Virus record (IMG/VR): IMGVR_UViG_3300042402_002641 | Span: 216,020-280,019 of that record | Strand: one strand, 5' to 3' | DNA: 64,000 nt | From: a virus | Shown here: positions 3,862-50,532 of the stretch, in pieces | Layout of the letters: every line of letters begins with the position of its first letter | Numbering within the stretch: the stretch's first letter is position 1 | Notes under the pieces: generated by a model | Told to the model about the DNA's origin: nothing | The model's input: the letters and a program-made list of their open reading frames with translations, nothing else | Databases searched by the model: none | Made by a program: the position numbers and the translations under genes

Positions 3862-4533
3862 ATGATGAATTCAACAGAGAACAAAATGTCAGAAAATCAA
3901 TCAAAAATCTCCGAGATCCCCCAGGCCCGACCAAATGAAACGGGCGGTTTCCATTTTGAAGGACACATTAAGATCTTTGATCCTAACACCAAAGAAGTGT
4001 TCATTGATAAACGTAACGCTATCCATTATGAAAATATGAGTGTGGCCATGGTGCAGAGTCTTAGCAATCAAGGTCAGGGAACAATTTATCAAATGGCGTT
4101 TGGTTCTGGAGGCACAATCGTTGATCCAACTGGCCTGATAACATATCTAACACCTAATACTATAGGAGTTAACTCTAGTTTATACAACCAAACCTATGTA
4201 AAAGTTGTAGATCAAAACGCTATTGAAAATACAGACCCTGCTAGAAATCTCATGCAGGTAAGACATATCAGTGGCGCTACTTACAGTGATATTCTAATCA
4301 GTTGTTTACTAGACTATGGAGAACCTCTAGAACAACAGGCCTTTGATAACTCAGTCGACATGAATGGAAATTTCGTTTTTGATGAATTAGGATTAATTAG
4401 CTACAATCCTAATGGCGCAGGAAAACTGCTGACGCATGTGATATTTCATCCGGTGCAAAAAAGTTTAAACAGACTGTTACAGATCGATTATACAATCCGT
4501 GTACAGAGCTTAACCGGTTTCACAGAGGTATAA
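3862..4533 (+). CDS. Virion structural protein, tail-associated (unknown)
   Basis: This 223-residue protein lacks a recognised enzyme motif. It is soluble and beta-rich, and it contains GGFHFEGHIKIFD near residue 30 and a Gly-rich loop AFGSGGTIVDP. It lies between the giant tail protein and the fibre array, 3 bases before the next gene, which implies a tail or baseplate role. Start choice is uncertain. The ATG at 3862 immediately follows the late promoter and could lie upstream of the predicted transcript start near 3866. The in-frame ATG at 3886, preceded by a weak AGAG element, may be the one used on late mRNA. Annotation as structural is by position and general sequence character. Confidence 0.65.
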   Translation: MMNSTENKMSENQSKISEIPQARPNETGGFHFEGHIKIFDPNTKEVFIDKRNAIHYENMSVAMVQSLSNQGQGTIYQMAFGSGGTIVDPTGLITYLTPNTIGVNSSLYNQTYVKVVDQNAIENTDPARNLMQVRHISGATYSDILISCLLDYGEPLEQQAFDNSVDMNGNFVFDELGLISYNPNGAGKLLTHVIFHPVQKSLNRLLQIDYTIRVQSLTGFTEV

Positions 4534-4536
4534 TAG

Positions 4537-6648: not shown

Positions 6649-6661
6649 TTAGAGAACAAGA

Positions 6662-8512
6662 ATGGCATACCAAATAAACAAAACTGACGGAACTATTATA
6701 GCCACAGTGGCTGATGGGCAGATAGATACCCTATCCACAGACATCACACTGATAGGTAAAAATTACAGTGGGTTTGGAGAAGCATTTAATGAAAATCTAG
6801 TAAAAATGCTAGAAAATTTTGCCAGCACCACAGCACCTCTACATCCATTAAAAGGCCAGGTTTGGTTTGATAATGCAGAAAATAAGTTAAAAGTTTATAA
6901 TGGCTCAACATTTATTCCTGTGAGTTCCGCCACCATTTCTAGCACACAACCCGATACCTTATCTATAGGTGATTTATGGTTTGATGATGTAGGAGCTCAG
7001 TTGTATTTCTTCGACGGGAATCAACCTATATTAATCGGACCAGCATATTCAACAGCACAAGGTAAAAGCGGATTAGAGGTCGACAGCATATTAGATACTC
7101 TGAATCAAACCAAAGTAATAACATATCTTTATAACAATGGTATATTACTAGGAATTTTTTCTAAAGACAGTTTCACACCTAAAATTTCTATTATTGGATT
7201 TAGCGGTAGCATAGAGCCTGGATTTAACGCAGGTACATTGGCTAATATAAAGTTTCGAGTAACCTGTACTAATTCAGAACAATTAGGAGGTGCAGTAGCT
7301 ACCACATATGCTAGAAGAGATTCAGCTAACACGTTGAACGGACAATTAAGTATAAACGTAGATGCAGGTCTAGTGATAGGCTCGGGTAATCAGATGAATC
7401 TCTTGGTAAGCTCGGGAGATATAGAAGTATCCAATTTTGCCAGCGACAAAGATCTATTTCTTAAAGTTAGAAAAGGTATTGATCAAGAAACTGCGGTATC
7501 TATAGATTCAAGCACACGAACAGTTGGAATATATTCAGGATTTCCAACCAGTATGGTTAATATCGGGGGCAGTTTAATAGTAGCAGGTGACCTTACTGTT
7601 GAAGGAACCACTACTACTATTAATACCGCTAATGTAACTATCGAAGACAAAACACTGACATTGGCCAACGTAGCAGCGCCAACGGAAACCACTGCTACTG
7701 GTGCTGGTATAATAATTAGATCTACTGGTTCAGATTCATCTGCCTACGATAAAGAAATAGTTTATAGATCTACCAGCGAAGGACCTCCGCCTACCGGAGT
7801 ATTTGACGTTAGTGAAGATCTAAATCTAGCAGCAGGCAAACAGTTACAGATAGGCGGGGTTAAAGTCATTGACGGTAACAGTCTTGGAAGTTCAATTACC
7901 AGTATTCCGGGAGTTACAGCTTTTGGTACACAGAATGTTCTAAACATTGGTCCTGGAGTACCGCCAGTAACACAGATGCGTTTAGAAAACCATAGGATCA
8001 GCACAGTGTCAACTAATTTTGACATCGAACTTGAACCAGACGGCTCGGGAAATGTTGCGTTAATAGGCTTGCCGAGAATCACAGGAATGCAGAATCCTGT
8101 GGGTCAACAAGATGCAGCCACCAAAGAATATGTAGATAGCACAGTAGAGTCAAGATCATTGGTATTCAGCACGGATTTATCTGATGGAAAATCTAACACA
8201 TATATTATTGCTAACATTTTAAATAATTTAGCTCCGGTAGCTGAATTTAGAAATGGTACTTATGCAAGAATATTGTGTACACTAATCAATCCTTCCAGCA
8301 CCAGTTTAGCTATCAATACATTGCCTCCTGGTATCGGTACTAATCCTTTCTTGACCGATCTATCAGGAAGCAGTTCTTTAGCCATTACTAGTATTTCATT
8401 CCCCACAGCTACAATTCCTGCAGCGTCTATTTCAACAACTAGAATTATTAAAACGTTTCAAATTGTAGCTAACGTTTGGACATGGCAGTCAGATTTGAGT
8501 TTACCACCATAA
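6662..8512 (+). CDS. Tail fibre paralogue 2 (shared N-terminal anchor)
   Basis: The 616-residue product starts with the same ~135-residue anchor as its neighbours (NYSGFGEAFNENLVKMLENF, GQVWFDN, GDLWFDD, ILIGP). The middle contains Gly/Thr/Asn-rich repeats, and near residue 485 the motif PVGQQDAATKEYVDS occurs, a signature common in phage fibres just before the C-terminal module. The C-terminal ~110 residues are Ser/Ile-rich and differ from the other three fibres. There is no collar domain. It lies 13 bases after the previous fibre gene in the same late cluster. A receptor-binding or structural fibre role is inferred. Confidence 0.8.
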   Translation: MAYQINKTDGTIIATVADGQIDTLSTDITLIGKNYSGFGEAFNENLVKMLENFASTTAPLHPLKGQVWFDNAENKLKVYNGSTFIPVSSATISSTQPDTLSIGDLWFDDVGAQLYFFDGNQPILIGPAYSTAQGKSGLEVDSILDTLNQTKVITYLYNNGILLGIFSKDSFTPKISIIGFSGSIEPGFNAGTLANIKFRVTCTNSEQLGGAVATTYARRDSANTLNGQLSINVDAGLVIGSGNQMNLLVSSGDIEVSNFASDKDLFLKVRKGIDQETAVSIDSSTRTVGIYSGFPTSMVNIGGSLIVAGDLTVEGTTTTINTANVTIEDKTLTLANVAAPTETTATGAGIIIRSTGSDSSAYDKEIVYRSTSEGPPPTGVFDVSEDLNLAAGKQLQIGGVKVIDGNSLGSSITSIPGVTAFGTQNVLNIGPGVPPVTQMRLENHRISTVSTNFDIELEPDGSGNVALIGLPRITGMQNPVGQQDAATKEYVDSTVESRSLVFSTDLSDGKSNTYIIANILNNLAPVAEFRNGTYARILCTLINPSSTSLAINTLPPGIGTNPFLTDLSGSSSLAITSISFPTATIPAASISTTRIIKTFQIVANVWTWQSDLSLPP

Positions 8513-18501: not shown

Positions 18502-20161
18502 TATTTTTTATGTTTCTAAAACTGCAGGTAATGACAGTGACTGGGAATATATCAAGTCTAAATATCCCCTTGCGCATCGGTTAACCAACATAAGATCTTT
18601 TGACGACATTAAAATTAATTCTTTCACTAAGATGTTTTGGGTCATCTGGGATGATATACATCTAATAGACACATTTGATCTAACAGAATATAAAGCCACT
18701 AAGTGGGACGACATGTATGTTCACGTTTTTAAAAACGGAGAACATCACGATGGAGTATGTTTATTTCCTAAAGTATTGAACATCTCGCAACGAGAGTTTT
18801 ATCATAGATTTTTTACAGAAAAAAAAGAAATAGATATTTTAGCGAGCGTTCCTAAGAAATACAATGTATACTCACCTTCAAATTATGACGAGTATTTGTC
18901 TATTGATGATGAAATGTTTTGGTTAGTTTGGCCAGAAGTTGAAATTATAGACGAATCAGTTTTTAAATTGTATTTTAGTCATCATAATACCTACGATCGT
19001 AGAGAAAATCATATTTTTAAAAACACATGTAATAACGATGAATCGTATATGAGTGGAGTTATTCTCTGTAGTAAGTATAAACAAATTTCATCTCGAGAGT
19101 TTGAAAAACAATATGTGATCGATAAAAAAGAACATGATATAATTGCGAGTAGATTTCGATATCCGACGTATGTTATTCACAGCTATGAACAATATCTAGA
19201 AATTCTTAAAAATTTAAAAAATAAAATGTTTTGGGGTATATGGCCCGAAGTTGAAATAATTGACACAGAAATCTTTGATTTTTACTTCGATCCCAACAAT
19301 GGAACATACGACCATGATAGAAAAGAAAATCATACATTTAAACATCTGTTTAACAACACCGAAATTTATATTAACGGTGTAGTATTATTTTCTAAAGAAA
19401 AACAAATTAGTCAAAGAGAGTTTATTCATAGATTTTTGATTAATAAAAAAGAACACGATAGAATAGTATCAAAACATCGACTATATGATGTTGTGTTTAT
19501 ATCTTACAACGAATCTAATGCAGATGAAAATTACAATAAGTTACTTAATAAGTGTCCTAGAGCAAAAAGAATACACGGGGTTGAAGGTATACATCAAGCA
19601 CACATTGAAGCAGCATCTATTTGTAATACAGATATGATTTGGATAGTTGACGGAGATGCAATTATTGAAGATAGTTTTGATTTTGATATAGTTATGTCTA
19701 GTTATGATATTAATTGTGTACATGTGTGGCGTAGTCGTAATCCTATTAATGATTTAGAATATGGCAATGGCGGTGTTAAGTTATTGCCTAGAAAGTTAAC
19801 ATTAGATATGGACAAAACTACTCCGGATATGACAACAAGCATATCTAAAAAGTTTAAAGTCATGAATACTGTGTCAAATATTAATTCTTTTAATACTGAC
19901 GAATTTACTACGTGGAGATCGGCATTTAGAGAATGCTGCAAATTAGCCAGTAGAGTAATTAAACGGCAATATGAAGACGAAACACAACAGCGATTAGATA
20001 TTTGGTGCAGTGTAGGGAAAGATAAACAATACGGCGATTTTGCAATAATGGGTGCTAAAATGGGTAGACAATACGGATTAGATAATAAAAATAATCCTGA
20101 AGCGTTGCAAAAGATTAATGATTTTAAATGGCTAAGGAATATATTTAATAATGCTTACTGA
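18494..20161 (+). CDS. Three-repeat protein fused to a glycosyltransferase-like domain (protein 4)
   Basis: The 555-residue protein has three tandem repeats of ~75-85 residues starting near 47, 141 and 245. Each repeat opens with MFW-x-x-W and a following V/I-E-I-I-D (I-H-L-I-D in repeat 1), then has xHxFK near the middle and ends with IS-x-REF...KKE-x-D. From residue ~331 a domain homologous to protein 3 follows (YDVVFISYNESNADE, RIHGVEGIHQAH, IWIVDGDAIIED, NDLEYGNGGVKL). In this copy the DxD region reads VDGDA. The repeats are not a family I can name. A plausible reading is a glycan- or protein-binding array delivering the catalytic domain to its target. Confidence 0.62.
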   Translation: MYDIFYVSKTAGNDSDWEYIKSKYPLAHRLTNIRSFDDIKINSFTKMFWVIWDDIHLIDTFDLTEYKATKWDDMYVHVFKNGEHHDGVCLFPKVLNISQREFYHRFFTEKKEIDILASVPKKYNVYSPSNYDEYLSIDDEMFWLVWPEVEIIDESVFKLYFSHHNTYDRRENHIFKNTCNNDESYMSGVILCSKYKQISSREFEKQYVIDKKEHDIIASRFRYPTYVIHSYEQYLEILKNLKNKMFWGIWPEVEIIDTEIFDFYFDPNNGTYDHDRKENHTFKHLFNNTEIYINGVVLFSKEKQISQREFIHRFLINKKEHDRIVSKHRLYDVVFISYNESNADENYNKLLNKCPRAKRIHGVEGIHQAHIEAASICNTDMIWIVDGDAIIEDSFDFDIVMSSYDINCVHVWRSRNPINDLEYGNGGVKLLPRKLTLDMDKTTPDMTTSISKKFKVMNTVSNINSFNTDEFTTWRSAFRECCKLASRVIKRQYEDETQQRLDIWCSVGKDKQYGDFAIMGAKMGRQYGLDNKNNPEALQKINDFKWLRNIFNNAY

Positions 20162-21512
20162 AGAAAAAAAATACAAAAAAGTTATTGAAATTTTAGATTC
20201 TGTTAGTCCGAGTTTTTGTCTAGCAAAATGGCATCAATTAACATTGTATCTACAAAATGGATTTAATCATAGCTGTCACCATCCTAGTCCTCATCAGGTG
20301 CCGTTGGAGGAACTAGCTGTAAATCATAAAGCGTTGCATAACACACAATTTAAAAAAAAGCAGATGCAAAAAATGTTAGATGGCGAGCGTCCTAGTGAAT
20401 GTGATTATTGCTGGAAAGCAGAAGATGCAGGCAGAATAAGTGATCGTGTTTATAAGAGTGCATCGTCATGGGCAAAAATTAATTTTGATTCTGTAATAGA
20501 AAATAAAACAGCAGATGTTAATCCCGCTTATCTAGAAATTAGTTTTAGCAATGTTTGCAATTTTAAATGTGCTTATTGTAGTCCAGATTTAAGCAGCCAA
20601 TGGTTTGAAGAAATTAAAACTCACGGCCCGTATCCAACATCATACAAATACAATAATTTTGATTGGTTTGAAAAAACAGGAAAAATGCCTATTAAACATA
20701 GTGACTATAATCCTTATGTTGAAGCTTTTTGGAAATGGTGGCCTGAGTTATATAGAGATCTACATACCTTAAGATTGACCGGAGGTGAACCATTATTAAG
20801 CAAAGATGCTTGGAAAATGATAGATTATATTGAGGACAATCCTAATAAAAATTTAGTGTTTGCTATCAATACTAACTTATGTGTACCTGATGAGTTAGTT
20901 GATAAAATAATATCGAAGATACAAAATATTTCTATAGATACTAAAGAATTTCAGTTTTTTACCAGTGGTGAAGCACTAGGAGCTCCTGCTGAATATATCA
21001 GATATGGTCTTGATTACAACAAATGGTCTGCTAATCTAGAAAAAGTTTTAGATAACACAAATGTTATTGTTGCAATTATGACTACAGTTAACTTAACCAG
21101 TGTAACTACCTATGCCGACTTTTTGAGATACATTTTAGATCTCAGAGGAAAATATAATAAAAACGCCGATTTTAATAAAGTTCAGTTCATGACAAACTTT
21201 TTAAGATACCCTGAATTTTTATCTTTGACACTACTAGATCGAGAAACTAAAGCAACATTTACTCAAGATATCGAAACTCTAATAGCAGAGAGAGGTGTCT
21301 GGGACGGCTTTGCTACATTAACTTTTTCTGAAGTCGATCAACTACGGCGCATGCTAGATTATATGAATTCTTCAATAGATGATGACAAATTAACATTATT
21401 AAGAACGGATTTTAAATCGTTTGTTGACGAATATGACCGTAGACGAAATACTAATTTTAATCAAGTATTTCCTGAATTAACTAACTTTTACAACCTATGC
21501 AACAAGACATAA
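20151..21512 (+). CDS. Radical SAM protein A1 (N-terminal auxiliary Cys domain)
   Basis: This 453-residue protein has a canonical radical SAM motif C136-x3-C140-x2-C143 (VCNFKCAYC), followed by an RLTGGEPLLS segment near residue 205, the GGEP motif that contacts S-adenosylmethionine. The ~100 residues before it hold C23, C42, C84 and C87 with an SCHH element, a SPASM/twitch-like set of ligands that here precedes the core. The substrate is unknown. It is paired with the next gene, which has cysteines at exactly the same core positions. It overlaps both neighbours in the operon by 11 and 16 bases. Such enzymes often modify peptides or sugars. Confidence 0.82.
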   Translation: MLTEEKKYKKVIEILDSVSPSFCLAKWHQLTLYLQNGFNHSCHHPSPHQVPLEELAVNHKALHNTQFKKKQMQKMLDGERPSECDYCWKAEDAGRISDRVYKSASSWAKINFDSVIENKTADVNPAYLEISFSNVCNFKCAYCSPDLSSQWFEEIKTHGPYPTSYKYNNFDWFEKTGKMPIKHSDYNPYVEAFWKWWPELYRDLHTLRLTGGEPLLSKDAWKMIDYIEDNPNKNLVFAINTNLCVPDELVDKIISKIQNISIDTKEFQFFTSGEALGAPAEYIRYGLDYNKWSANLEKVLDNTNVIVAIMTTVNLTSVTTYADFLRYILDLRGKYNKNADFNKVQFMTNFLRYPEFLSLTLLDRETKATFTQDIETLIAERGVWDGFATLTFSEVDQLRRMLDYMNSSIDDDKLTLLRTDFKSFVDEYDRRRNTNFNQVFPELTNFYNLCNKT

Positions 21513-22825
21513 GAAAAACAATAGAGCTCATCAACGATATCAGTCCTAGTTTTTGTGCGGCCAAATGGTATAATGCCACTATCTGGTTAGGGAATGGTCG
21601 CACCGCCAGTTGCCATTTGCCTCCGGCGCACAGTATTCCCTTAGAAGAAATTAAAAATAATCCAAGTGCTTTACATAATACGACATTTAAAAAACATCGA
21701 AGACTAGAAATGATTCAAGGCAAAAGATGCAAAGAATGTGCATACTGCTGGACTGTAGAAGATAATGCTTCTCCTGATGTATACAGTGATCGTGTCTATA
21801 AGACCAGGATTTATCAAGAAAACGAAATATTGCAATTAGCCAGACTTGATCCTCAAGCAGATATTGATCCTAAAACATTAGAAATTAGTTTTGATAATTT
21901 ATGTAATTTAAGTTGCAGTTATTGTAATTCAGAATTCAGCACAACCTGGGCCAGCGATATTAAACTTAATGGCCCGTATACTGAATTAAAGACTCAGGGC
22001 GGTGGTGCATTTCAAAATTCAGGTGAACATGCATTGCCCTATGGCATTAAGAATGAAAATAATCCCTATATAGAAGCTTTTTTTAAATGGTTTCATGCTA
22101 GCCTTAAAAACAATTTACAAGAGCTTAGAATTACCGGAGGGGAACCTACACGAAGTCCTTGGTTTTGGAAATTATTAGACGAATGCAAAGATACAAAATT
22201 TGATTTTGCAGTTAACAGTAATCTTATAATGGACCAAAATAAACTTGCACAACTCATTGATGCTAGTAAAAAATTTAAAAAGTTTGATTTATACACCAGC
22301 GGAGAGGGCTATGGCGCTCACGGTGAGTTTATTAGATGGGGATTAGATTATAGTTTATGGAGAAAAAATTTAATTCAGTTTGCTCAAGAAGGCAAATACA
22401 GTATGATCCATGTAATGATGACTATTAGTGCTTTGAGCATTTGGTCAATAACTGAATTCATGACAGATATGCTAGAATTAAGAAAACAATTTGGTGGTCA
22501 TCAATTCCACATGAGTCTTAATTTAGTGAGATTTCCTAGCTTTCAAAATTTGAATGTGTTGCCGATAGATCTAAAACAAATCCAGGTAAATAAAATCGAA
22601 ACGTGGCTCAGTGATGCTGTTGGGTTAAGTTCATCCGAACAAAATCAAATAGAAAGAATCGTTGAGTATCTTAAAAATGTTGATCGCAGTCAAGAAGACA
22701 CAGATAGCCAAGAAAATAAACAGCATGATTTAAAAAAATTTACACAACAATATGCTGATAGAAAAAATGTTGATCTCTCAACAGTATTTCCAAAAGAATT
22801 CACACAATGGTTTAACACAATATGA
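21497..22825 (+). CDS. Radical SAM protein A2 (paralogue of A1)
   Basis: The 442-residue product has C136-x3-C140-x2-C143 (LCNLSCSYC) and RITGGEPTRS near residue 210. N-terminal cysteines C20, C39, C78, C81 and C84 (KECAYCW) form an auxiliary cluster region before the core. Similarity to A1 covers the whole length, including the PSFC-AKW start and the block SDRVYK, so this is a tandem duplication that has diverged. Its stop overlaps the ATG of B1. Which substrate each copy handles cannot be read from sequence. Confidence 0.82.
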   Translation: MQQDIRKTIELINDISPSFCAAKWYNATIWLGNGRTASCHLPPAHSIPLEEIKNNPSALHNTTFKKHRRLEMIQGKRCKECAYCWTVEDNASPDVYSDRVYKTRIYQENEILQLARLDPQADIDPKTLEISFDNLCNLSCSYCNSEFSTTWASDIKLNGPYTELKTQGGGAFQNSGEHALPYGIKNENNPYIEAFFKWFHASLKNNLQELRITGGEPTRSPWFWKLLDECKDTKFDFAVNSNLIMDQNKLAQLIDASKKFKKFDLYTSGEGYGAHGEFIRWGLDYSLWRKNLIQFAQEGKYSMIHVMMTISALSIWSITEFMTDMLELRKQFGGHQFHMSLNLVRFPSFQNLNVLPIDLKQIQVNKIETWLSDAVGLSSSEQNQIERIVEYLKNVDRSQEDTDSQENKQHDLKKFTQQYADRKNVDLSTVFPKEFTQWFNTI

Positions 22826-24036
22826 ACGAAGATAAATTCTGTATAATACCTTGGATACACCTTAACACAGAACCCAATGGGCGTGTTAAACCGTGTTGTG
22901 CATATTTTGGAGAAGAGTCGGGAAATTTAAAAAATACTACACTAGAAGAAATATGGAATAACGAACATACTAAATCTATGCGTAGAAGCTTTTTAGAAAA
23001 TAAAATCCCAGAAGGATGTCTAACCTGTACTAAAAAAGAAAGCAGTGGCGGAGTAAGCTACCGGATGGCAGTCACTGAAAGATTCAGTCATCATATCGAA
23101 AAAGCTAAAAGTAATACATTGCCCGATGGTACCTATGAAACATTTGAAATAATTTTTTGGGATTTTAGATTTAGTAATATCTGTAACTTTAAATGCCGTA
23201 TGTGTGGCCCCGGCGCAAGCAGTTCTTGGTACGACGATTTTAGTCCGGAAGAAAAGAAAACTAACATAAAATTCTTAGACAGTTCTTACTATGGAACTGA
23301 TTTAATGAAATATGTTGACCAGTTTATCGATAGTGTTGAAGAAATTTATTTTGCAGGCGGTGAACCGTTGCTTATGGCTGAACATTATCAAATATTAGAT
23401 AAGTTAATTTCTAAAGAACGCTATGATGTATTTTTAAGATACAACACCAACATGAGTACTATTAAGTATAAAGACTATGACTTAATCAACATATGGAAAA
23501 GATTTAAGAGCGTGAAAATATTTGCCAGTATTGACGGTATAGAAGAAAACGCAGAATACAGCAGATCAGGCACGGACTGGCCAAAGGTAGAAGAAAATTT
23601 AAAAAAACTGGTAAACTCTAAAGTTGACTACGTTGTATCTAGTACTATAAACATCTTTAATGTTTTTAATTTTACACACTTAGTAGACAGACTAATAGAA
23701 TTAAAAATGTCAACTAGAAAGATGTTAGTAAGTCATGTTAACTGGCCTCATTACTACATGACTTCAATTCTGCCGGAAGATATAAAGGATAAAATAAGAT
23801 TACAGTTAGACGAACACCTAGAAAAAATAACCCCAACAATTACAGAAGAAGAAAGTAGGTGGCTTGGTAACTTATACAACGAGATTAAATTTTATCTAAT
23901 ACCTACAACTTCACCAGAAGAAACTGTTAAATTGCGGAAAAAATTTAAGTATGATACTGTTAAATTAGATAGTATCAGAAAAGAAGATATTAGAATCGCT
24001 GCGCCCGAATTAGCTGAATGGTTTGATACATTATGA
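22822..24036 (+). CDS. Radical SAM protein B1 (SPASM-like region before the core)
   Basis: This 404-residue protein begins with a SPASM-like signature: C7 with PWIHL, C25-C26 (KPCCAYFG), GNLKNTTLEEIWN, and C66-x2-C69. That domain normally follows the radical SAM core but here precedes it. The core motif is C121-x3-C125-x2-C128 (ICNFKCRMC), followed by YFAGGEPLL near residue 175. Radical SAM/SPASM proteins often modify ribosomal peptides or carry out complex sugar chemistry, but the substrate here is unknown. Four-base overlaps join it to both neighbours. Confidence 0.83.
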   Translation: MNEDKFCIIPWIHLNTEPNGRVKPCCAYFGEESGNLKNTTLEEIWNNEHTKSMRRSFLENKIPEGCLTCTKKESSGGVSYRMAVTERFSHHIEKAKSNTLPDGTYETFEIIFWDFRFSNICNFKCRMCGPGASSSWYDDFSPEEKKTNIKFLDSSYYGTDLMKYVDQFIDSVEEIYFAGGEPLLMAEHYQILDKLISKERYDVFLRYNTNMSTIKYKDYDLINIWKRFKSVKIFASIDGIEENAEYSRSGTDWPKVEENLKKLVNSKVDYVVSSTINIFNVFNFTHLVDRLIELKMSTRKMLVSHVNWPHYYMTSILPEDIKDKIRLQLDEHLEKITPTITEEESRWLGNLYNEIKFYLIPTTSPEETVKLRKKFKYDTVKLDSIRKEDIRIAAPELAEWFDTL

Positions 24037-25241
24037 ACGATAAATTTATTTGCGACTTTCCCTGGGTGCATCTAAGTGTGTTTCCACAAGGTAATTGTAC
24101 AATTTGTTGTGTAGCCAAACATTCCGGAAAAGGTAACGGGCATTCATGGAATCGTATTAGCGAAGATAAAACTAAAACTGTTACAGTAATGAATAGCACA
24201 GTTTCAGAAATCATTAACTGTGATAATTACAGGGCAATTAGATTAGATATGCTTGCTGGAAAAGTTCCGACAGCATGCGAAGGATGTCACCAGGTAGAGC
24301 AAGCAGGCGGCAGAAGTAAGCGACAATTAGAAACTAATCGAAATTTAGATCATGCGGCATTAACTGCCGATGATGGAGCTATCAAATCAGACTTACGACA
24401 CATAGAACTACGCCTAGGCAACTTTTGTAATCTGAAATGTCGAAGCTGCAATGCAGATTCTAGCACAAGTTGGATTCAAGACTATTATAAACTTAAAGAT
24501 ACAGTAAAGTTAGCCAGCGGTTATCATTGGATTAAAAGCAATCCCGAATTTAGCTTTGACTGGGTCGATGATGAATCGTTTTACGACCAGTTAACAGAGC
24601 TAGCACCTAATCTTGAACAAATACATATCAGTGGCGGCGAACCATTTTTAGTGCCTACGCATTTTAAATTGTTAGAAAAACTTGTTCGCGAAGGCAAGAC
24701 TGATATTGCTATACACTATCATACCAATTTGAATTACAAGTGGGAGAAAATTACTCCGGCATTAGACCTGCTTACACAATTCAAAGAAGTACATATTAAT
24801 TTTAGTATCGACGATGTAGAAGAACGAAATACTTATATTAGAAGTTTAAGTGATTGGAATTTAACTATAAGTAATTTAAAATTATTTCTAACACACTACA
24901 ATTTCATTTTTGCTGTTACTCAAACTGTAAGTGTATATAACTTTATGTATGTAGAAGAATTAACACAATATCTTAAAGAAAACAATATTTACATTAAAGT
25001 GCGTTTGAATCATGTGCAGAGTCCGGATTACTTAGATGCTAATGTATTGCCTAAGCAAGTACGCCAAGATAAGATTAATTCGTTACAAGGAATTGTCATT
25101 CCCCGTATATGGGAAGATTTATACGGTCATTATTACAATCCGGAAGCTAACGGCCAGTGGGATTATTTTAAATACTTTACTGAAAAAATCGACGCAGTAC
25201 GTAACGAAAACTTAAATGATATTTTTCCAAAACTTGCATGA
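24033..25241 (+). CDS. Radical SAM protein B2 (paralogue of B1)
   Basis: The 402-residue protein shows the same layout as B1: C7 with PWVHL, C22, C25-C26 (TICCVAKH), C82-x2-C85 (ACEGC), then the core C132-x3-C136-x2-C139 (FCNLKCRSC) and ISGGEPFLV near residue 205. B1 and B2 form a second duplicated pair distinct in length and spacing from A1/A2. The gene overlaps B1 by 4 bases and the next unknown gene by 4 bases. Function is unknown beyond radical S-adenosylmethionine chemistry. Confidence 0.83.
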   Translation: MNDKFICDFPWVHLSVFPQGNCTICCVAKHSGKGNGHSWNRISEDKTKTVTVMNSTVSEIINCDNYRAIRLDMLAGKVPTACEGCHQVEQAGGRSKRQLETNRNLDHAALTADDGAIKSDLRHIELRLGNFCNLKCRSCNADSSTSWIQDYYKLKDTVKLASGYHWIKSNPEFSFDWVDDESFYDQLTELAPNLEQIHISGGEPFLVPTHFKLLEKLVREGKTDIAIHYHTNLNYKWEKITPALDLLTQFKEVHINFSIDDVEERNTYIRSLSDWNLTISNLKLFLTHYNFIFAVTQTVSVYNFMYVEELTQYLKENNIYIKVRLNHVQSPDYLDANVLPKQVRQDKINSLQGIVIPRIWEDLYGHYYNPEANGQWDYFKYFTEKIDAVRNENLNDIFPKLA

Positions 25242-43744: not shown

Positions 43745-46408
43745 TCACTCAAAATCAAACAGTTTGCTGAATGTGTTATCCGACCTTGTTGAACTGATGT
43801 CCCATTCCAAAACACCAATAAGGTTTTCTAGCTTTTCGTCAATGACAGTGGTTTCCATTTCGCCATCGTCGAAAGGCAGATCTTTGAACCATTGCGGCAG
43901 TCTCAGTTCATCCACAGGATATGCCACTGAGGTATAGCCCATAGGATTGTCTTTGACCTTGCAGACAATGACTTTAGCACCATCTACGATGTTCATAGAA
44001 TATTTGTCATCCATCATTCGCTTAAGAGTGTTCCAGTTTAGACTAGCTCGAACATGACCGGGCATGTTGGTTTTGCCGGCTTTCTTTTCTTTGTCACGAT
44101 AGTCAGTGATGTTATTGGCACGTTTAGGTGAACCTTTTTCCCAGCCTGGCCGTGTCTTGAATTCTGTGCGAAAGTTAGTGATGTATTCCAACACTGATTC
44201 CTTAGTCTCGCCGTTTAGCACTCGGGTCAGTACCGCACTCAAGAAGTCTTGGATAACAACCGGGGTATCTGACCGCTTGAGGTCAAGCCCCATGGCTTTG
44301 ATTTTGCCTGGACCGTCGACATCAGCACGTTTGCCTTCTTTGTCGTAGTAGAGAACTGCGTATCGTTTTTTGGTGATAAACAGTCCTTTGCTTGCAACAA
44401 TCTCGCGACCTGCTTTGATGACGTCCCCTCGAGTCTTTGGACAGTGGAAGGCGTCCTGCATGAATTTGACAAATGTTCCATTGACTGTTTCTCCTATGGT
44501 ATCGTAAAGTTCAACCACTGATTCTCTGTTCCAGGGAATCAGTCCTTTCTCAATGTCTTTCTTCAGCGTAGAATACGCAGAGAAATAACAAGAGTCTGTG
44601 TCACCGTAGATAATAGCACGACCAACATGATCTGCTTCTCCGGTAATGATTTCATTGACTTTTGACGCCATATGGCGAGCAATAGCTCTGCCAGTGAGTG
44701 TAGTCGATTGACCGATTCTGTTATCAAAGAATCTGCAGCCTGGATTTAAGATAGCACCATACAGGCTGTTCAAGTTAATCTTCTTAACCAGCTGTCGCTT
44801 GTCCCAGTATTCTTCTTCGATCTTGTTGCCAGCGGCAATACATTCTTTGAGTTTGGCCTGCATTTCTTTGCGTTCTGCATACCAACGTTTCAGCAGTCCG
44901 GGAATGATACCTTCTTTCTCATAGGTAAAGATAGTGCCGTTGGCGCTCAGCATCCAAGGTTGATTTGATTCAAAAATTAAATCGTAGATCTGTGCTGCGC
45001 TTAAAGTATCAGATCCACCATCTTCCCAGTCAATGGTGATTTCACGCCCTACCTTTCTTTCAAGTACGTCAGTGTATTCGATACTGCCAAACATTCCTTC
45101 CCAGGCTGAGGCAAAGGATTTATTTTTAGCCATTTGACCGTCGATATATTCCTTGGTGCCATCTTGGCGCAGTTGTCCCACGATGGTTTCCGGTCCCATG
45201 TTCAGCGCACGAATCGCACTAGGATACAGTGAATTAATATCTAGTGAGCCAATCCATTCGTGTATGCCCTTCTTGGGATAGGCCACATAAGCACCTGCAG
45301 CCTGTGTATCTATGCCATCACGATTCACACGATTAGGAACGATCATACCACGCTTGTGTGCTTCGTTGATGATGGCCTGTTCTGTAACCGCCACGGCACC
45401 CATAGTGGTAGCCAACAGCACTGTGCATTCGTGCGCCAGTGTGTTAGCCAGAGCCAAGAATTTTAATTTCTTGTCTAACTTGTCCAGTAGAGCAGTGTCT
45501 TGCCTGTTGTATTCTATGAATCTACGGAAGTCATTGTTGTACAATTGGTCTAAGGTGCCTTCATAGACAGTCTTGTTTTCCCCAATTTCCATTTCACCAA
45601 TGGCATCCAGTCGATAGGTATGTCGTTCTTCATAGGTATATTTGCGATACAGTTCAAGACTGTCGAGGTGTACACGACCGATGAAGTCATAGGTCACGGC
45701 AGTTTTGCCATACTTTTCGTATTCTCGCTTTTTAGGAAACTGATTCCACAGACAGAAACGGCGTGTGTCCTCTTTGCTTAGGACCTTGGTCACACGATTC
45801 ACTGTATAGGGAATATCAAAACCTTCTGAGTTCCAACCGCTGAGAACATCAACATCTTGTATGATATCTAAAAATGTGTCCAGCATTTCTGATTCAGTTT
45901 CGAACAGCATAGTATTGGGGATGTCTTCGATCTGACGCTTGGCTTCGGCCATGCTGAGTGTTTTAGGAGGGATGGCCAAACATATCATGGTCTCCATCCA
46001 TTGTAGATACACAGCAATAGCGGTGATAGGCATGAATGCATCTTCTGGTGATGCATAACCGCGTTCTGGATCAAAGTCTACTTCGATGTCGAAGAATGCT
46101 ACATTAAGTTTAGGAGCGTCGGTGTTAAGATAATGATCTTCGAGGCAACGATATATGGGATTGATATCGCTTTCGTAGAGTTTTTTGTTGCTGTGTATGG
46201 CTAGTTCTTTGCGATGTTCTTTGACATTTTTTGAACTAACACGGCTTAATGGTTCGCCTTTGATTGATTGGAACTTGCCGCGGGGATCGATGTAATAAAA
46301 AACATGCCTAGCTGGATATTCTTTGAAATGTCTCTGACCTTTGTCATCGCGTTCAACCACACGGATGATATCATTGTCGCGATCATAGAAAGCGTCTACG
46401 TAACTCAT
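43745..46408 (-). CDS. 43: Family B DNA polymerase (T4 gp43-like)
   Basis: The 887-residue protein has all hallmarks of a replicative family B polymerase. Exonuclease motif I is F106-D107-I-E109, exonuclease motif II lies near VLSGWNSEGFD (188-198), and exonuclease III is near YNRQDTALLD (300-309). Polymerase motif A is SLD390-I-N-S-L-Y-P-S, motif B is KINLNSLYGA near 545, and motif C is YGDTDSCYF near 608. It copies the phage genome with proofreading. Length matches gp43 (898). It starts at the ATG at 46408 with TAGGAG about 7 bases before. Confidence 0.95.
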   Translation of the reverse strand: MSYVDAFYDRDNDIIRVVERDDKGQRHFKEYPARHVFYYIDPRGKFQSIKGEPLSRVSSKNVKEHRKELAIHSNKKLYESDINPIYRCLEDHYLNTDAPKLNVAFFDIEVDFDPERGYASPEDAFMPITAIAVYLQWMETMICLAIPPKTLSMAEAKRQIEDIPNTMLFETESEMLDTFLDIIQDVDVLSGWNSEGFDIPYTVNRVTKVLSKEDTRRFCLWNQFPKKREYEKYGKTAVTYDFIGRVHLDSLELYRKYTYEERHTYRLDAIGEMEIGENKTVYEGTLDQLYNNDFRRFIEYNRQDTALLDKLDKKLKFLALANTLAHECTVLLATTMGAVAVTEQAIINEAHKRGMIVPNRVNRDGIDTQAAGAYVAYPKKGIHEWIGSLDINSLYPSAIRALNMGPETIVGQLRQDGTKEYIDGQMAKNKSFASAWEGMFGSIEYTDVLERKVGREITIDWEDGGSDTLSAAQIYDLIFESNQPWMLSANGTIFTYEKEGIIPGLLKRWYAERKEMQAKLKECIAAGNKIEEEYWDKRQLVKKINLNSLYGAILNPGCRFFDNRIGQSTTLTGRAIARHMASKVNEIITGEADHVGRAIIYGDTDSCYFSAYSTLKKDIEKGLIPWNRESVVELYDTIGETVNGTFVKFMQDAFHCPKTRGDVIKAGREIVASKGLFITKKRYAVLYYDKEGKRADVDGPGKIKAMGLDLKRSDTPVVIQDFLSAVLTRVLNGETKESVLEYITNFRTEFKTRPGWEKGSPKRANNITDYRDKEKKAGKTNMPGHVRASLNWNTLKRMMDDKYSMNIVDGAKVIVCKVKDNPMGYTSVAYPVDELRLPQWFKDLPFDDGEMETTVIDEKLENLIGVLEWDISSTRSDNTFSKLFDFE

Positions 46409-46483
46409 TTATTCTCCTATGCAATTTTTAGGCTTGCAAATACCAATGTGCGGTTTATGGCCACGCCTACCATCTACTTTTAT

Positions 46484-46774
46484 TTAACTACTTAGCATCC
46501 TTACTAGGCCAACGCTGTCAATACTGACTAGCAAGAGGTAGTTAGCCAACATGCCAAACGATTTCCTAGTATAAGCAGCCCAAGCATACATGGCACAACC
46601 AGAAATCCATATAGGATAAAGAGCCAGTAAAGGCGGAGTGGGGACGGTGACTGCCATAGTGATCGCACAGCCAATACTAATAGCCCAAGCAAGCAGCTCA
46701 ACACCAAAGCGAAACTTATTAGACTTCCAATCATCATGTATCCAATCGAATGTAGGTTTTAATAAATCATTCAT
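46484..46774 (-). CDS. Small three-to-four-segment membrane protein
   Basis: This 96-residue protein has a charged N-terminus (MNDLLKPTFDWIHDDWKSNKF) and hydrophobic segments near residues 25-42, 46-62 and 72-92. It is likely an inner-membrane protein. A perfect consensus sigma-70 promoter ends 6 bases before its ATG and there is no ribosome-binding site, so the transcript may be leaderless. Its role is unknown; similar small membrane proteins occur beside gp43 in marine T4-like phages. Confidence 0.65.
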   Translation of the reverse strand: MNDLLKPTFDWIHDDWKSNKFRFGVELLAWAISIGCAITMAVTVPTPPLLALYPIWISGCAMYAWAAYTRKSFGMLANYLLLVSIDSVGLVRMLSS

Positions 46775-46780
46775 GCATTA

Positions 46781-46809
46781 ATTATACTATTATTGTTTGA
46801 CATTGTCAA
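46781..46809 (-). promoter_or_regulatory. Consensus sigma-70 promoter
   Basis: TTGACA, 17-base spacer, TATAAT, all consensus. The -35 box is inside a short palindrome TTTGACAATGTCAAA. The -10 box is 6 bases from the ATG at 46774. Confidence 0.8.
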
Positions 46810-46818
46810 ATTTTAATA

Positions 46819-47922
46819 TCATTTTATCAATCTAGATAGTTCTGGAAACACTTCGGCCCAGTTTAATCTACGTCTATAGTCTATGGCATCGAGTGCGTCA
46901 ATCCAGTTGAAGTTGTCACCATTTGTACTCGTTTGAATAAACCGTCTAAGACGTTCAAACTGAGGACCCATGGGTATAATTTCTAGCATGGCCGCTTTAA
47001 CATCGGCAGATACTGTGTCAAATGATAACTTCCCTATTGTTAGTTCTGGAGCTAGTATATAGGTAGTATTATCCTGTCTAAGCCCATTGAACCAATCAAC
47101 TAGCTTAGAAAACTCTAGGGCATTATGTACGCCGAGATTAGGGGCTATATTAATTACTAGCTGTTTATCAAATAGTTTGCCAAAGCTAGCTACATTGTTG
47201 GCTACTTCAGTCCAGTTTAATGGATAGCGTATGTATTCAAACTGTGGGCCTACAGCTTCTACACTACATATCAACATTATGCTCCTACATTCGTTCCAAA
47301 GAGCTACATCTTCCTTAGTAGGCATGATGCTACAATTGGTGTTGACCACCAGACTCAACTTATCTAACGAGCCCTGCTGCTCTTTAACTTTGGTTAGTAT
47401 CTTGTTAATATCTGTGCTTAGGAACGGCTCCCCCCCGTTGAAGTAAATCTGTGTTAACTTGCTAAAGTCCACGTTAAATTCCGGATCAGATTTACGTATT
47501 TGATTAAAACTGCGAAAGCCAACGCCTACAGTATTAAACTTTTCGTCCTCTGCGGCCCAAGCACTGCTCCAATTACTTCCACAGGTAATACATTTGGCAT
47601 TGCATAACGGAGCAACATTATAATGCATTGTTAATAACTCAACTTCATATGGATCTTCTGCCGGGTTAGCGATTCTTCTTTCTCTACTACTAGGCACACC
47701 TGCATCTTCTTTGCGCCAACAGAAGTTGCAGCTACTAGGTCTATTGCCTTTATTAAACTCTTCACGTTGGTTGGTTAGATATACATCTTTATGAAAATCA
47801 ATTACAGATATTGCTGGCCCTGTTTGGTTAACACAACAGGCGCTTATTTTAGCTTGATTATCAGGTTCGGCAGAAACATACAGTCCCTTATAAATTGCCG
47901 CACAATAGTTAGATTGAGTCAA
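46819..47922 (-). CDS. Radical SAM protein 5 (SPASM-like region before the core)
   Basis: The 367-residue protein has N-terminal C7, C29-C30, C65-x2-C68, then the core C107-x3-C111-x2-C114 (LCNAKCITC) and YFNGGEPFL near residue 165. It is the same architecture as B1/B2 in the fibre-side operon but on the other strand, 20 kb away. The start is a TTG at 47922 without a clear ribosome-binding site; no in-frame ATG exists upstream before a stop. The substrate is unknown. Its neighbours are a DUF3445-like demethylase and SpeD, which raises a link to amine or S-adenosylmethionine chemistry. Confidence 0.8.
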   Translation of the reverse strand: MTQSNYCAAIYKGLYVSAEPDNQAKISACCVNQTGPAISVIDFHKDVYLTNQREEFNKGNRPSSCNFCWRKEDAGVPSSRERRIANPAEDPYEVELLTMHYNVAPLCNAKCITCGSNWSSAWAAEDEKFNTVGVGFRSFNQIRKSDPEFNVDFSKLTQIYFNGGEPFLSTDINKILTKVKEQQGSLDKLSLVVNTNCSIMPTKEDVALWNECRSIMLICSVEAVGPQFEYIRYPLNWTEVANNVASFGKLFDKQLVINIAPNLGVHNALEFSKLVDWFNGLRQDNTTYILAPELTIGKLSFDTVSADVKAAMLEIIPMGPQFERLRRFIQTSTNGDNFNWIDALDAIDYRRRLNWAEVFPELSRLIK

Positions 47923-47936
47923 GATATGCTGAATAA

Positions 47937-48665
47937 TTAATTATTCTTTTTATTAGCTAACAAGTTTAACAGATTTTTAATTTTTGTCAAGTTTTTGTAT
48001 TCCAATATATTGTCAGTCATGCTATTAACGCTGTCTAATATTCGCTTATGGTACACGGATTTTAGAGGAACAACATCCATCTTAACAAAGAACAAACTGG
48101 TTTCGGAATCTATTTTGGCAGTGGTTTGTGTTTCAGATCTAAAATATAAATCTTCCAGGCCAACGGGGTCAATTTCTTTTTTGTTGTTAGGATGATTACT
48201 TAAATCAGGATTGGTAGTTATAGTCCAAACCCACCTGCGAAAACTCGCTTGTTCACACATTACTCTACTGATACCAGGACTGGCTTTTACCAACAGTTCA
48301 CTATCTGCTACCGGTCGATGAATATCTTCTAAAGTCATACCCAATCGTTGTGATGGGATAAAGCCGCTGGGAAAGCAAAAACAAATAGCTGTTAGTTTGC
48401 CTTGATGCATGACAGCAACATCTTCCTCCAGTCGTAGTGCTAGATCTTGGATTTGATTAGAGTATACACCGCAATATCTTGCAGCACGTTCTACGGTAGC
48501 TTCTGATCCTGCTATCTGACCAAATAAATCTGTGTTATACTTTGCTAATTCTTCTTTTTTCTTTTGTATTATGTCTAGATCAGGAGAAGAAATAAAAACA
48601 GGTCCGGTATTACGAATCATATTAGGACCTGTGGTATACGGTGTTTTTACAAAATCAATCTGCAT
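47937..48665 (-). CDS. DUF3445 / heme-dependent oxidative N-demethylase-like protein
   Basis: The 242-residue protein matches the DUF3445 pattern: ICFCFPSGFIPSQRLGMTLEDIHRPV near residue 95, CEQASFRRWVWTI near residue 137, and LYFRSETQTTAKI near 175, where the family has an R-x-E-(R/x)-Q-T-L element. The family includes subunits of heme-dependent oxidative N-demethylases that remove methyl groups from amines. A heme ligand cannot be pointed to with certainty. It lies between the radical SAM gene and speD; its start overlaps the speD end by 11 bases. Confidence 0.6.
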   Translation of the reverse strand: MQIDFVKTPYTTGPNMIRNTGPVFISSPDLDIIQKKKEELAKYNTDLFGQIAGSEATVERAARYCGVYSNQIQDLALRLEEDVAVMHQGKLTAICFCFPSGFIPSQRLGMTLEDIHRPVADSELLVKASPGISRVMCEQASFRRWVWTITTNPDLSNHPNNKKEIDPVGLEDLYFRSETQTTAKIDSETSLFFVKMDVVPLKSVYHKRILDSVNSMTDNILEYKNLTKIKNLLNLLANKKNN

Positions 48666-49014
48666 GCCTAGTCAAAAAGTTAACCCGCATTTTCTTAGGA
48701 TGAAAATATTCATTGACTACCTGTTTTGCAACTTCAAGATCAAATTCTTTACAACTGAAAATATCAAAGTAGGCTGTGCCATCTAATTCCATAAAATGAC
48801 CACTGATGTTACTAGTAGTAATTAATTGCATGAGACTATATCCCTGTTTGGGATCGCCTGGTAGAAGATATTCGATGATAGGTTCTCCGTGTGCAGTCAT
48901 ATCGATACGTGCCACTAACTCTTTTACGAACTTGTATATGTTATCACGATCTTTTACGGCAGCTATGTCACAGCCGCTGCAATCTAATAATAAATGATAT
49001 CCCCAGTAGCTCAT
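48655..49014 (-). CDS. speD: S-adenosylmethionine decarboxylase
   Basis: This 119-residue protein starts MSYWGYHLLLDCSGCD, a typical SpeD opening, and has T67-S68-N-I-S-G-H73 where family members carry (E/T)-S-H-x-S-x-H; S68 would become the pyruvoyl group after self-cleavage. C88 in DIFSCKEFD fits the catalytic Cys. SpeD makes decarboxylated S-adenosylmethionine for spermidine synthesis and is known from several marine phages. The pre-serine residue is Thr instead of the common Glu. Polyamines may help package phage DNA. It overlaps both neighbours. Confidence 0.82.
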   Translation of the reverse strand: MSYWGYHLLLDCSGCDIAAVKDRDNIYKFVKELVARIDMTAHGEPIIEYLLPGDPKQGYSLMQLITTSNISGHFMELDGTAYFDIFSCKEFDLEVAKQVVNEYFHPKKMRVNFLTRHAD

Positions 49015-49274
49015 TATTCAGGCAACCTTTTAGTGACACCCAGAATCATTTCAATCTCGTTCCATTCTTGTTCGTGGTCTTTCCAATTATCTTTGTGTGC
49101 TATGCGTATGGCCTTGTTGATGATTGAGGGTTTGATCTGTAGTTCTTCTGCGACAGCTTTAACAGTTTCTTTGAGACCTTCTTGCAGATCTTCAAGCTCA
49201 CGTAGTACATTTGAGCCTTCAGTGATTAATCTTTCTAGTTTGGCTTTTTCTTCGGGACCGTACATTTTTGTCAT
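49014..49274 (-). CDS. DsbA-like DNA-binding transcription regulator (tentative)
   Basis: The 86-residue helical protein begins MTKMYGPEEKAKLERLITEG and has AVAEELQIKPSIINKAIRIAHKDNW, a helix-turn-helix-like stretch resembling T4 DsbA, which binds DNA near late promoters. The ATG at 49274 has CTGGAG 11-15 bases upstream on a leader made from a sigma-70 promoter. It is the first gene of a short operon with speD, the DUF3445-like gene and radical SAM protein 5. Confidence 0.6.
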   Translation of the reverse strand: MTKMYGPEEKAKLERLITEGSNVLRELEDLQEGLKETVKAVAEELQIKPSIINKAIRIAHKDNWKDHEQEWNEIEMILGVTKRLPE

Positions 49275-49300
49275 GTATATTGACTCCAGTTTATGTATTA

Positions 49301-49329
49301 ATTATACAGGAATAAAAAAAGCCAGTCAA
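49301..49329 (-). promoter_or_regulatory. Sigma-70 promoter overlapping a terminator
   Basis: TTGACT, 17-base spacer, TATAAT on the minus strand. The -35 box lies in the second arm of the terminator hairpin at 49321-49341, and the U-tract of that terminator is part of the spacer. The leader to the dsbA-like ATG is ~20 bases. Confidence 0.75.
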
Positions 49330-49341
49330 TGAATGACTGGC
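49311..49341 (-). terminator. Intrinsic terminator after the virion gene block
   Basis: GCCAGTCA/TGACTGGC forms a perfect 8-bp stem with a 5-base loop, followed on the minus strand by seven Ts. It ends transcripts coming from the virion protein genes at 49364 and beyond. Confidence 0.85.
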
Positions 49342-49363
49342 TTAGGTTTACCAAACGGTTGAA

Positions 49364-50236
49364 TTATTTTTGAGCTTCACTGAGCACGTCGTACATTTCA
49401 AATACACCGCCGTTGCGCTCATAGATTAGACCAGCATAAAGTTCTGCTTTCATGCCTTCGCCCAGTTTGCTGGCAGCTACACGAGTAGCCCAGTTGAACA
49501 ATGACTTGTCTAGAGGATCGATCTGTTGTTGTCCGCCGCTTTCTTGAACCAGTTGTACCATCTGCTTGAAACTTAGTTTTTGTTCTATTGATTCTTTCAC
49601 CGGACGCTTTTTGCCTGTTGGCATCATCTTTGATTCATTCTTTTTGCCGAAGTATTTTGCTTGAGCAGCACTCATACCTTTCTTAGCGCCGTCTTTTTTA
49701 TCTTCGCCTTTCTCTCCAGCAGCTTTCTTCATTGGTTCTTTCTTGTCACCATCTTTGTCGATGTCTAGAAAGTCTGGCTTAGATCCTTCAGCCATCTTTT
49801 CTTTCTTGGCCATCTTCTTTTTCTTATCTGTTTCTTCTTTCTTGGCCTCAACCATCTTCATGAATTTGCTTTTGAATTCGGGTTCTACACTTTCTTTCTT
49901 AGCTTTCTTTTTGGACTTAGGAGCATCTTCATCATCATCTTCAGGTTCTGCCTTGCTGCCACCATAGTTCTTGCCAGCATGGTGTTTGACGCCTGTAGCA
50001 GTCTTTTCTATTGTGCCACCTGTAGAACTAGGTTTTTTATCGCCAGTTTTCATTTCTTCTTTGACATCTTCTTCTTTCTTTTTCTTGGCTTCAGCTACAT
50101 AGGTGCTTTGTCCTGCTAGCACACGCAGAGCAGCATCTTCGTTGAGCTGCACAGCTTTGTCTAGTACGGGAGCAGCTACCGTGGAGATCTGATCATCCAT
50201 TGAGCTGATTTTAGTGATAAGTGATTTAAAGTCCAT
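49364..50236 (-). CDS. Lys/Glu-rich virion-associated protein
   Basis: The 290-residue protein has an N-terminal helix (MDFKSLITKISSMDDQIS), a highly charged low-complexity middle (residues 50-215) made of Lys, Glu and Asp, and a folded C-terminal end (DKSLFNWATRVAASKLGEGM, then AELYAGLIYERNGGVFEMYDV). Such charged cores with a conserved C-terminus occur in head-associated proteins of marine T4-like phages. It starts behind a GATAAATAC late promoter with AAGGAAT as ribosome-binding site and ends before a strong terminator. Exact role unknown. Confidence 0.6.
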   Translation of the reverse strand: MDFKSLITKISSMDDQISTVAAPVLDKAVQLNEDAALRVLAGQSTYVAEAKKKKEEDVKEEMKTGDKKPSSTGGTIEKTATGVKHHAGKNYGGSKAEPEDDDEDAPKSKKKAKKESVEPEFKSKFMKMVEAKKEETDKKKKMAKKEKMAEGSKPDFLDIDKDGDKKEPMKKAAGEKGEDKKDGAKKGMSAAQAKYFGKKNESKMMPTGKKRPVKESIEQKLSFKQMVQLVQESGGQQQIDPLDKSLFNWATRVAASKLGEGMKAELYAGLIYERNGGVFEMYDVLSEAQK

Positions 50237-50268
50237 AATCGATTCCTTGTTCCTAACAGTTGGTAATG

Positions 50269-50276
50269 TATTTATC
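50269..50276 (-). promoter_or_regulatory. Late promoter, GATAAATA
   Basis: GATAAATAC on the minus strand gives a predicted start near 50263 and a ~27-base leader with AGGAAC and AAGGAA before the ATG at 50236. It overlaps the stop codon of the upstream gene. Confidence 0.55.
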
Positions 50277-50532
50277 TTTTTACTGCAGAGCCAGCACCAA
50301 ACAAACTAGTGCTTTGATCTAGGGCATTTTTGGCCGTGCCGTCCTTGTTTTTAGGCTGGTGAACCTTGGGTTGTGGGGGTGATTTAGTACCTCCAGGGCC
50401 CCCCGGCTTGCCTAAATAGCTGGTCTTTCCTCGAGCTTTTCCTGGGCTAATATGCGGATTTACCACAGTACCTATGCTAGCAGCTGAAGTAGCACCGGCA
50501 GTAGCTGATTCTATGATTTCTTGTATTTTCAT
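50272..50532 (-). CDS. Small basic protein with capsid-targeting-like leader
   Basis: The 86-residue protein opens MKIQEIIESATAGATS. The first eight residues match the T4 capsid-targeting leader style (MKTYQEFIAE), with I-I-E a possible (L/I)-x-E cleavage site for the prohead protease. The rest is Gly/Pro/Lys-rich, basic and probably disordered, as in T4 internal head proteins. It may be packaged with the DNA. The leader similarity is by eye. Confidence 0.55.
   Translation of the reverse strand: MKIQEIIESATAGATSAASIGTVVNPHISPGKARGKTSYLGKPGGPGGTKSPPQPKVHQPKNKDGTAKNALDQSTSLFGAGSAVKR

Follow-up and report, generated by a model that had tools for sequence, protein, structure and literature searches.

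Gene content of the locus

We analysed a 64,000-nucleotide stretch (the window) that covers positions 216020–280019 of a 280,019-base virus record and derives from a freshwater jumbo phage. The record is possibly a fragment, and absences from it are thus weak evidence. On the minus strand between positions 46819 and 49274, all four predicted open reading frames were confirmed at their boundaries, and each was supported by family scans. The first gene in reading direction (49014–49274, minus strand) encodes a DsbA-like small DNA-binding protein of 86 aa, whose match to PF11126 (2.9e-5) lies just below the cut-off and which matches phrog_639 (transcriptional regulator) at 5.6e-12. It is followed by speDC (48655–49014, minus strand), which encodes a class 1b SpeD homologue of 119 aa that matches AdoMet_dc PF02675 at 7.5e-20, and by the gene for a 242-aa DUF3445 protein (47937–48665, minus strand), which is similar to the HODM alpha subunit, has a predicted heme-PAS fold and matches PF11927 (HODM_asu-like, the present name of DUF3445) at 7.7e-22 (78.4 bits versus a gathering cut-off of 25). 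The stop of speDC and the start of the DUF3445 gene overlap by 11 nt (48655–48665, minus strand). The last gene (46819–47922, minus strand; TTG start) encodes a twitch-domain radical SAM protein of 367 aa that passes the NCBIfam twitch model NF033640 (7.7e-54, 183.3 versus 170 bits); its match to Pfam Radical_SAM (2.2e-5) is below the cut-off.

A sigma-70-like promoter, TTGACT-17-TATAAT (49329–49301, minus strand; 11 of 12 consensus positions), precedes the first gene and is overlapped by a terminator-like hairpin of the preceding gene (49343–49319, minus strand), both being pattern matches only. Another promoter of this type, TTGACA-17-TATAAT (46781–46809, minus strand; 12 of 12 consensus positions, likewise a pattern match only), precedes the genes for a small probable membrane protein (46484–46774, minus strand; 96 aa; cluster c3, 40 members in relatives) and an 887-aa DNA polymerase (43745–46408, minus strand). 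The polymerase, which provides genomic context, matches DNA polymerases of named phages, with the best match (50% identity) in Sinorhizobium phage Phosso. It is plausible from these signals that the four genes form one transcription unit, set apart from the downstream genes by the 12/12 promoter. No structured RNA was found in positions 46000–50500. At another locus of the same virus record (L015, 7073–7523, minus strand), ARAGORN gave a starred tmRNA-like match with an odd tag peptide, which is possibly false.

Insertion of the radical SAM gene

The proteins of four consecutive fibre-side radical SAM genes (20151–25241, plus strand) also pass NF033640, and the enzyme encoded at 46819–47922 is thus of the same type as those in the fibre-side operon, as the original prediction had it. 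The four fibre-side proteins share 21–35% mutual identity. The prediction further had the enzyme act with its neighbours in amine metabolism, or in a modification consuming both. However, the gene is missing at this place in L008 and L010, which are about 95% identical to the window in the preceding genes, and in L113; in the near-identical relatives, the DUF3445 stop is directly followed by the membrane protein gene. We treat the radical SAM gene as having entered recently, and in this genotype only, between DUF3445 and the polymerase block, insertion being likelier than loss in the relatives because all other contigs with this gene order are without it. Missing from near-identical relatives, it was rejected as a functional member of the set, and the modification consuming both found no support. 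A defence function was also rejected, with weak viperin-like radical SAM matches as the only sign of one.

Conservation of the speDC–DUF3445 pair across viruses

A scan of IMG/VR with the SpeD protein alone yielded 158 relatives, 80 of which were kept; their loci were searched with a DUF3445 profile and their genes clustered, and SpeD was counted after clustering at 97% identity. The predicted co-occurrence of the two genes was recovered: DUF3445 adjoins speD in 17 of the 55 testable SpeD clusters, and speD adjoins DUF3445 in 17 of the 49 viral DUF3445 clusters, with no speD within the flank (up to 5 kb; less in short contigs) in 32 of the 49. Many T4-type genomes have the fixed order DsbA-like gene, speD, small membrane protein gene, DNA polymerase gene, in which DUF3445 is an optional gene directly after speD. 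The conserved core is the pair of speDC and DUF3445, not a four-gene module: the DsbA-like gene (cluster c8, present in 28 loci) is T4-type syntenic context within the same putative transcription unit, and the membrane protein gene is a conserved neighbour outside the pair. Both members of the pair are under purifying selection, with dN/dS values of the window against L010 of about 0.03 for SpeD and about 0.12 for DUF3445.

Most DUF3445 clusters are without speD and most SpeD clusters are without DUF3445, so neither gene needs the other. The two could be passengers, adjacent by chance or through shared transfer and with no joint function, and the radical SAM gene shows that the spot accepts insertions. 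We consider this improbable, as the pair was found in at least six different gene neighbourhoods with a constant overlap of same-strand pairs (11 nt in 24 of 26, 8 nt in 2 of 26), and L035 and L050 have a divergent DUF3445 homologue (28–30% identity) in convergent arrangement with speD. On the DUF3445 tree, moreover, the coupled state must have changed at least three times to fit the well-supported branches, gains and losses being counted alike. For illustration, a binomial calculation that sets the chance of adjacency at 1% arrives at about 5e-21, a value that is not a proper probability because the sequences are related.

Among individual loci, L013/L036 (a 278 kb contig) has the pair behind a CHASE2 nucleotide cyclase and the curli genes csgG and csgA-like. 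A TerC-family membrane protein gene comes after the pair in L041, L043, L059 and L068, other radical SAM genes adjoin it in L048, a UV-endonuclease UvdE gene adjoins or lies close to it in L035, L042 and L050, and an amidinotransferase gene is near it in L040 and L042.

At least 133 IMG/VR contigs (relatives passing one scan) encode DUF3445; most of these copies are without speD, and the marine ones are surrounded by T4-type genes (RNase H-like and DUF6433). Carriers are well represented in IMG/VR, yet four diverse queries gave no match among the 50,697 records of the named phage collection, and to this extent a DUF3445 gene is indeed unusual for a phage. A structure search of BFVD gave no match, no second DUF3445 copy was found, and we found no relevant literature on DUF3445 in phages. 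None of 80 loci with cellular SpeDC genes has DUF3445 near them; one of 14 cellular SpeDC genomes carries DUF3445, at another place.

SpeD as a probable ornithine decarboxylase

The window SpeD has the self-processing residues S68 (pyruvoyl site), H73 and C88, which are invariant across the phage set and have the same spacing (His +5, Cys +20) as S63, H68 and C83 of the Thermotoga maritima AdoMetDC. Its structure model (pLDDT 93) has a TM score of 0.84–0.85 versus the T. maritima enzyme. According to PMC9992855, the polyamine enzymes of phages include SpeD homologues that work as ornithine or arginine decarboxylases, class 1b SpeD homologues of phages are often not AdoMet decarboxylases, and the proven ornithine decarboxylases (ODCs) of freshwater phages have 117–122 aa, a size like that of the window SpeD. 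Gln, Thr, Phe and Tyr are diagnostic residues of SpeDC ODCs (PMC10407285), and we inferred their positions from cellular relatives in SpeDC taxa (GTDB scan) versus tandem AdoMetDC-motif paralogues from the same loci. The two cellular groups have Q, T, F (rarely L) and Y versus V or I, E, T or S, and A at these positions; the window SpeD and its phage family carry all four SpeDC-diagnostic residues (Q63, T67, F74, Y82). The nearest cellular relatives in the GTDB scan belong to Methanomicrobia including Methanospirillum hungatei, Spirochaetes and candidate phyla, which are the taxa described for SpeDC ODCs in PMC10407285. The enzyme of M. hungatei strain JF-1 is a proven ODC in the same source, and the relative from M. 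hungatei isolate M59 is probably the same gene.

In a quick tree, the window SpeD is placed within the SpeDC clade (support of 91 for the node of SpeDC and phage proteins and of 97 for the phage clade) and apart from the AdoMetDC-motif proteins. It fails the NCBI AdoMetDC equivalog TIGR03330 with 41.3 bits versus a cut-off of 75.65. Because of the clade, the diagnostic residues and the failed AdoMetDC cut-off, we infer with good confidence that the protein decarboxylates L-ornithine rather than AdoMet: it is probably a pyruvoyl-dependent L-ornithine decarboxylase (SpeDC) that makes putrescine and consumes no SAM. The amine and polyamine theme of the original prediction is thus retained, but its link to SAM through S-adenosylmethionine decarboxylation is not. 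A bona fide AdoMet decarboxylase feeding a host spermidine synthase would be compatible with the PF02675 match and with the nearest named-phage SpeD, that of Sinorhizobium phage phiN3 (37.5% identity), which is a proven AdoMetDC lying by the ODC clade (PMC9992855). This published status agrees with the basal position of phiN3 outside the SpeDC clade in our quick tree. For the window protein such an activity appears quite unlikely in view of its placement within that clade, its score against TIGR03330 and all four diagnostic residues, including the Thr that phiN3 is without; moreover, the 280 kb record yielded no spermidine synthase (SpeE), and a complete phage spermidine route was rejected on the same ground.

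In six viral contigs (L040, L042, L045, L047, L050 and L098), a gene for an amidinotransferase homologue (PDB 1bwd, GATM family, 1.5e-61) lies no more than about 5 kb from speD. This type of reaction releases ornithine, and a nearby amidinotransferase would thus release the predicted SpeDC substrate. The amidinotransferase model PF02274 had no match in the window's 280-kb record; it also missed the homologues on the six contigs. The named Microcystis phage MaAM05 (L027) has an annotated polyamine cluster with two speH, speE and speB in a row. Hypermodified thymidine made from putrescine was rejected, as the record has no domain of the thymidylate synthase/hydroxymethylase type (PF00303).

Fold and conserved residues of the DUF3445 protein

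A profile of 18 phage DUF3445 sequences matches PDB 5LTE at 1.4e-8. The AlphaFold2 model of the window protein (pLDDT 83, pTM 0.80; N-terminal 14 residues poor) retrieved HODM 5LTH in Foldseek at 8.3e-10 with a probability of 1.00, and 5LTH and 5LTE were the only matches below E 0.001. Structure prediction thus agrees with the DUF3445 family match. Of the oxidative N-demethylase initially proposed, the family and the HODM fold stand, whereas N-demethylation comes with the family name and stays a prediction. D82, H116, R144, R176, E178 and F192 are invariant across 92 phage and cellular DUF3445 sequences, W147 and Y223-K224 are nearly invariant, and some of the phage sequences have E instead of Q180. 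His116, the sole invariant His among the tested residues, is a candidate heme ligand. We predict with moderate confidence that the protein binds heme and oxidises an amine, the latter activity being extrapolated across a long branch from Dmm/HODM-type proteins.

With its PAS fold, its small size, no visible redox partner and PAS sensors as the secondary Foldseek matches (next best E 0.02), the protein might instead be no enzyme but a regulator of SpeDC or of infection that senses gas or redox state as a heme-PAS protein. We regard this as unlikely, given that the six invariant residues are common to the whole HODM lineage (phage, cellular and HODM) and that the protein has no output domain. 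No reductase or ferredoxin partner domain, PF00175 (NAD_binding_1) or PF00111 (Fer2), was found in the possibly incomplete 280 kb record, and a HODM reductase of the phage's own was dismissed as none was found there. The same result bears on a Dmm-like catabolism, in which the phage would demethylate dimethylamine so that a methylotrophic host gains nitrogen or C1 units. DmmABC activity is known in bacteria (PMC5520151) and the phage protein is kin to HODM, but that study used dmmABC, three structural genes, together, and the phage clade lies apart from the Dmm/HODM-type proteins; such a role is very improbable.

Cellular relatives of the phage DUF3445 proteins

In the DUF3445 tree, all phage proteins group with eight sequences that we class as betaproteobacterial from earP/efp and the gene make-up of their genomes. 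The 28 other cellular sequences, with the Dmm/HODM-type proteins, are split off by a starred branch of support 100 that carries a long-branch warning. In four of the eight betaproteobacterial relatives (L329–L332, about 3900–6800), DUF3445 lies between DNA_pol_B_exo2 (PolB-type exonuclease) and rsmA/ksgA, and in L306 (2837–7501) between earP-efp and mnmC. RsmA is the enzyme for 16S rRNA N6,N6-dimethyladenosine and MnmC makes 5-methylaminomethyluridine, both of which are N-methylated nucleosides. We found no description of the function of rsmA- or mnmC-linked DUF3445 proteins; their gene neighbourhood suggests RNA or translation substrates. As the efp-mnmC neighbourhood was seen in one genome only, it was rejected as a general rule.

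These neighbourhoods in five genomes, the HODM alpha subunit crystallised with dimethylamine, and the T4-type surroundings of the marine viral copies (RNase H-like and DUF6433 genes) would all fit an oxidative N-demethylase or N-dealkylase that acts on RNA or a translation factor as an eraser or editor of N-methyl groups, with SpeDC adjoining since both would tune translation. This is a doubtful though conceivable reading: its evidence is that of neighbourhoods, and the rsmA region may be a conserved block; the cellular relatives L333–L335 are without rsmA- or mnmC-type neighbours, and no RNA-binding feature was identified.

Putative role of the pair

The explanation that we favour, by a little over an even chance, is that speDC and DUF3445 form a translationally coupled two-gene cassette, borne by many uncultivated jumbo and T4-like phages, that would adjust host amine chemistry. 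SpeDC would cut itself at Ser68 to form the pyruvoyl cofactor and convert L-ornithine to putrescine, as its clade and diagnostic residues suggest; self-processing and ornithine decarboxylation have been shown elsewhere for SpeDC homologues. The DUF3445 product, with its likeness to the heme-PAS domain of HODM alpha, would most likely bind heme and carry out an O2-dependent oxidation of an amine C-N bond with electrons donated by a host reductase. Its substrate might most readily be an amine of the putrescine pool or amine-bearing translation components on which polyamines act, and the pair would in this way tune the amine chemistry of the infected host. In this account, the DsbA-like gene is T4-type context and the radical SAM gene a separate, recent arrival. 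A broader idea, which we put forward tentatively as unlikely, is a widespread and hitherto overlooked viral subfamily of heme-PAS oxidases that takes off or alters N-alkyl groups of polyamines, RNA or translation factors in the infected cell; in a subset of phages it would be translationally coupled to a pyruvoyl ODC, as an amine-editing cassette.

Studies of the use that phages make of polyamines gain a concrete target in these two genes, which also point to an undescribed cellular DUF3445 subfamily beside rsmA and mnmC. A phage "speD" annotation should not be read as SAM consumption.

Comparison with known systems

Within the NF033640 twitch radical SAM group, the copy at 46819 is an isolated insertion, unlike the four consecutive genes at 20151–25241. 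In the tree, the betaproteobacterial DUF3445 proteins (L329–L332 and L306) share a side with the phage proteins; their genes, unlike the phage ones, are chromosomal, and the loci read show no speD close to them.

Within the DUF3445 family, HODM was the one enzyme with a solved structure found here, and its alpha subunit (5LTE/5LTH) resembles the phage protein in fold (TM 0.72 by query length) and in the conserved D, H, R, W, R, E, Q, F and Y-K positions. The phage protein differs from HODM in its low identity (about 17%) and its shorter, diverged N-terminus, with the Pfam match starting at profile position 94. The phage DUF3445 proteins form a tree subfamily separate from HODM/Dmm, and the partner subunits were not found in the phage record.

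The phiN3 protein differs from the window SpeD on both sides of the cleavage Ser, with Asp replacing the preceding Thr and a His following, and its gene has a different neighbourhood with no annotated DUF3445 close by. The SpeDC ODCs (PMC9992855, PMC10407285) resemble the window SpeD in size, fold, Ser/His/Cys and Gln/Thr/Phe/Tyr residues, clade and freshwater phage carriers. The available parts of both papers do not mention a DUF3445 partner, and the ODC activity of the window protein is predicted. To the phage polyamine enzymes reported in PMC9992855, the pair described here adds a coupled oxidase candidate.
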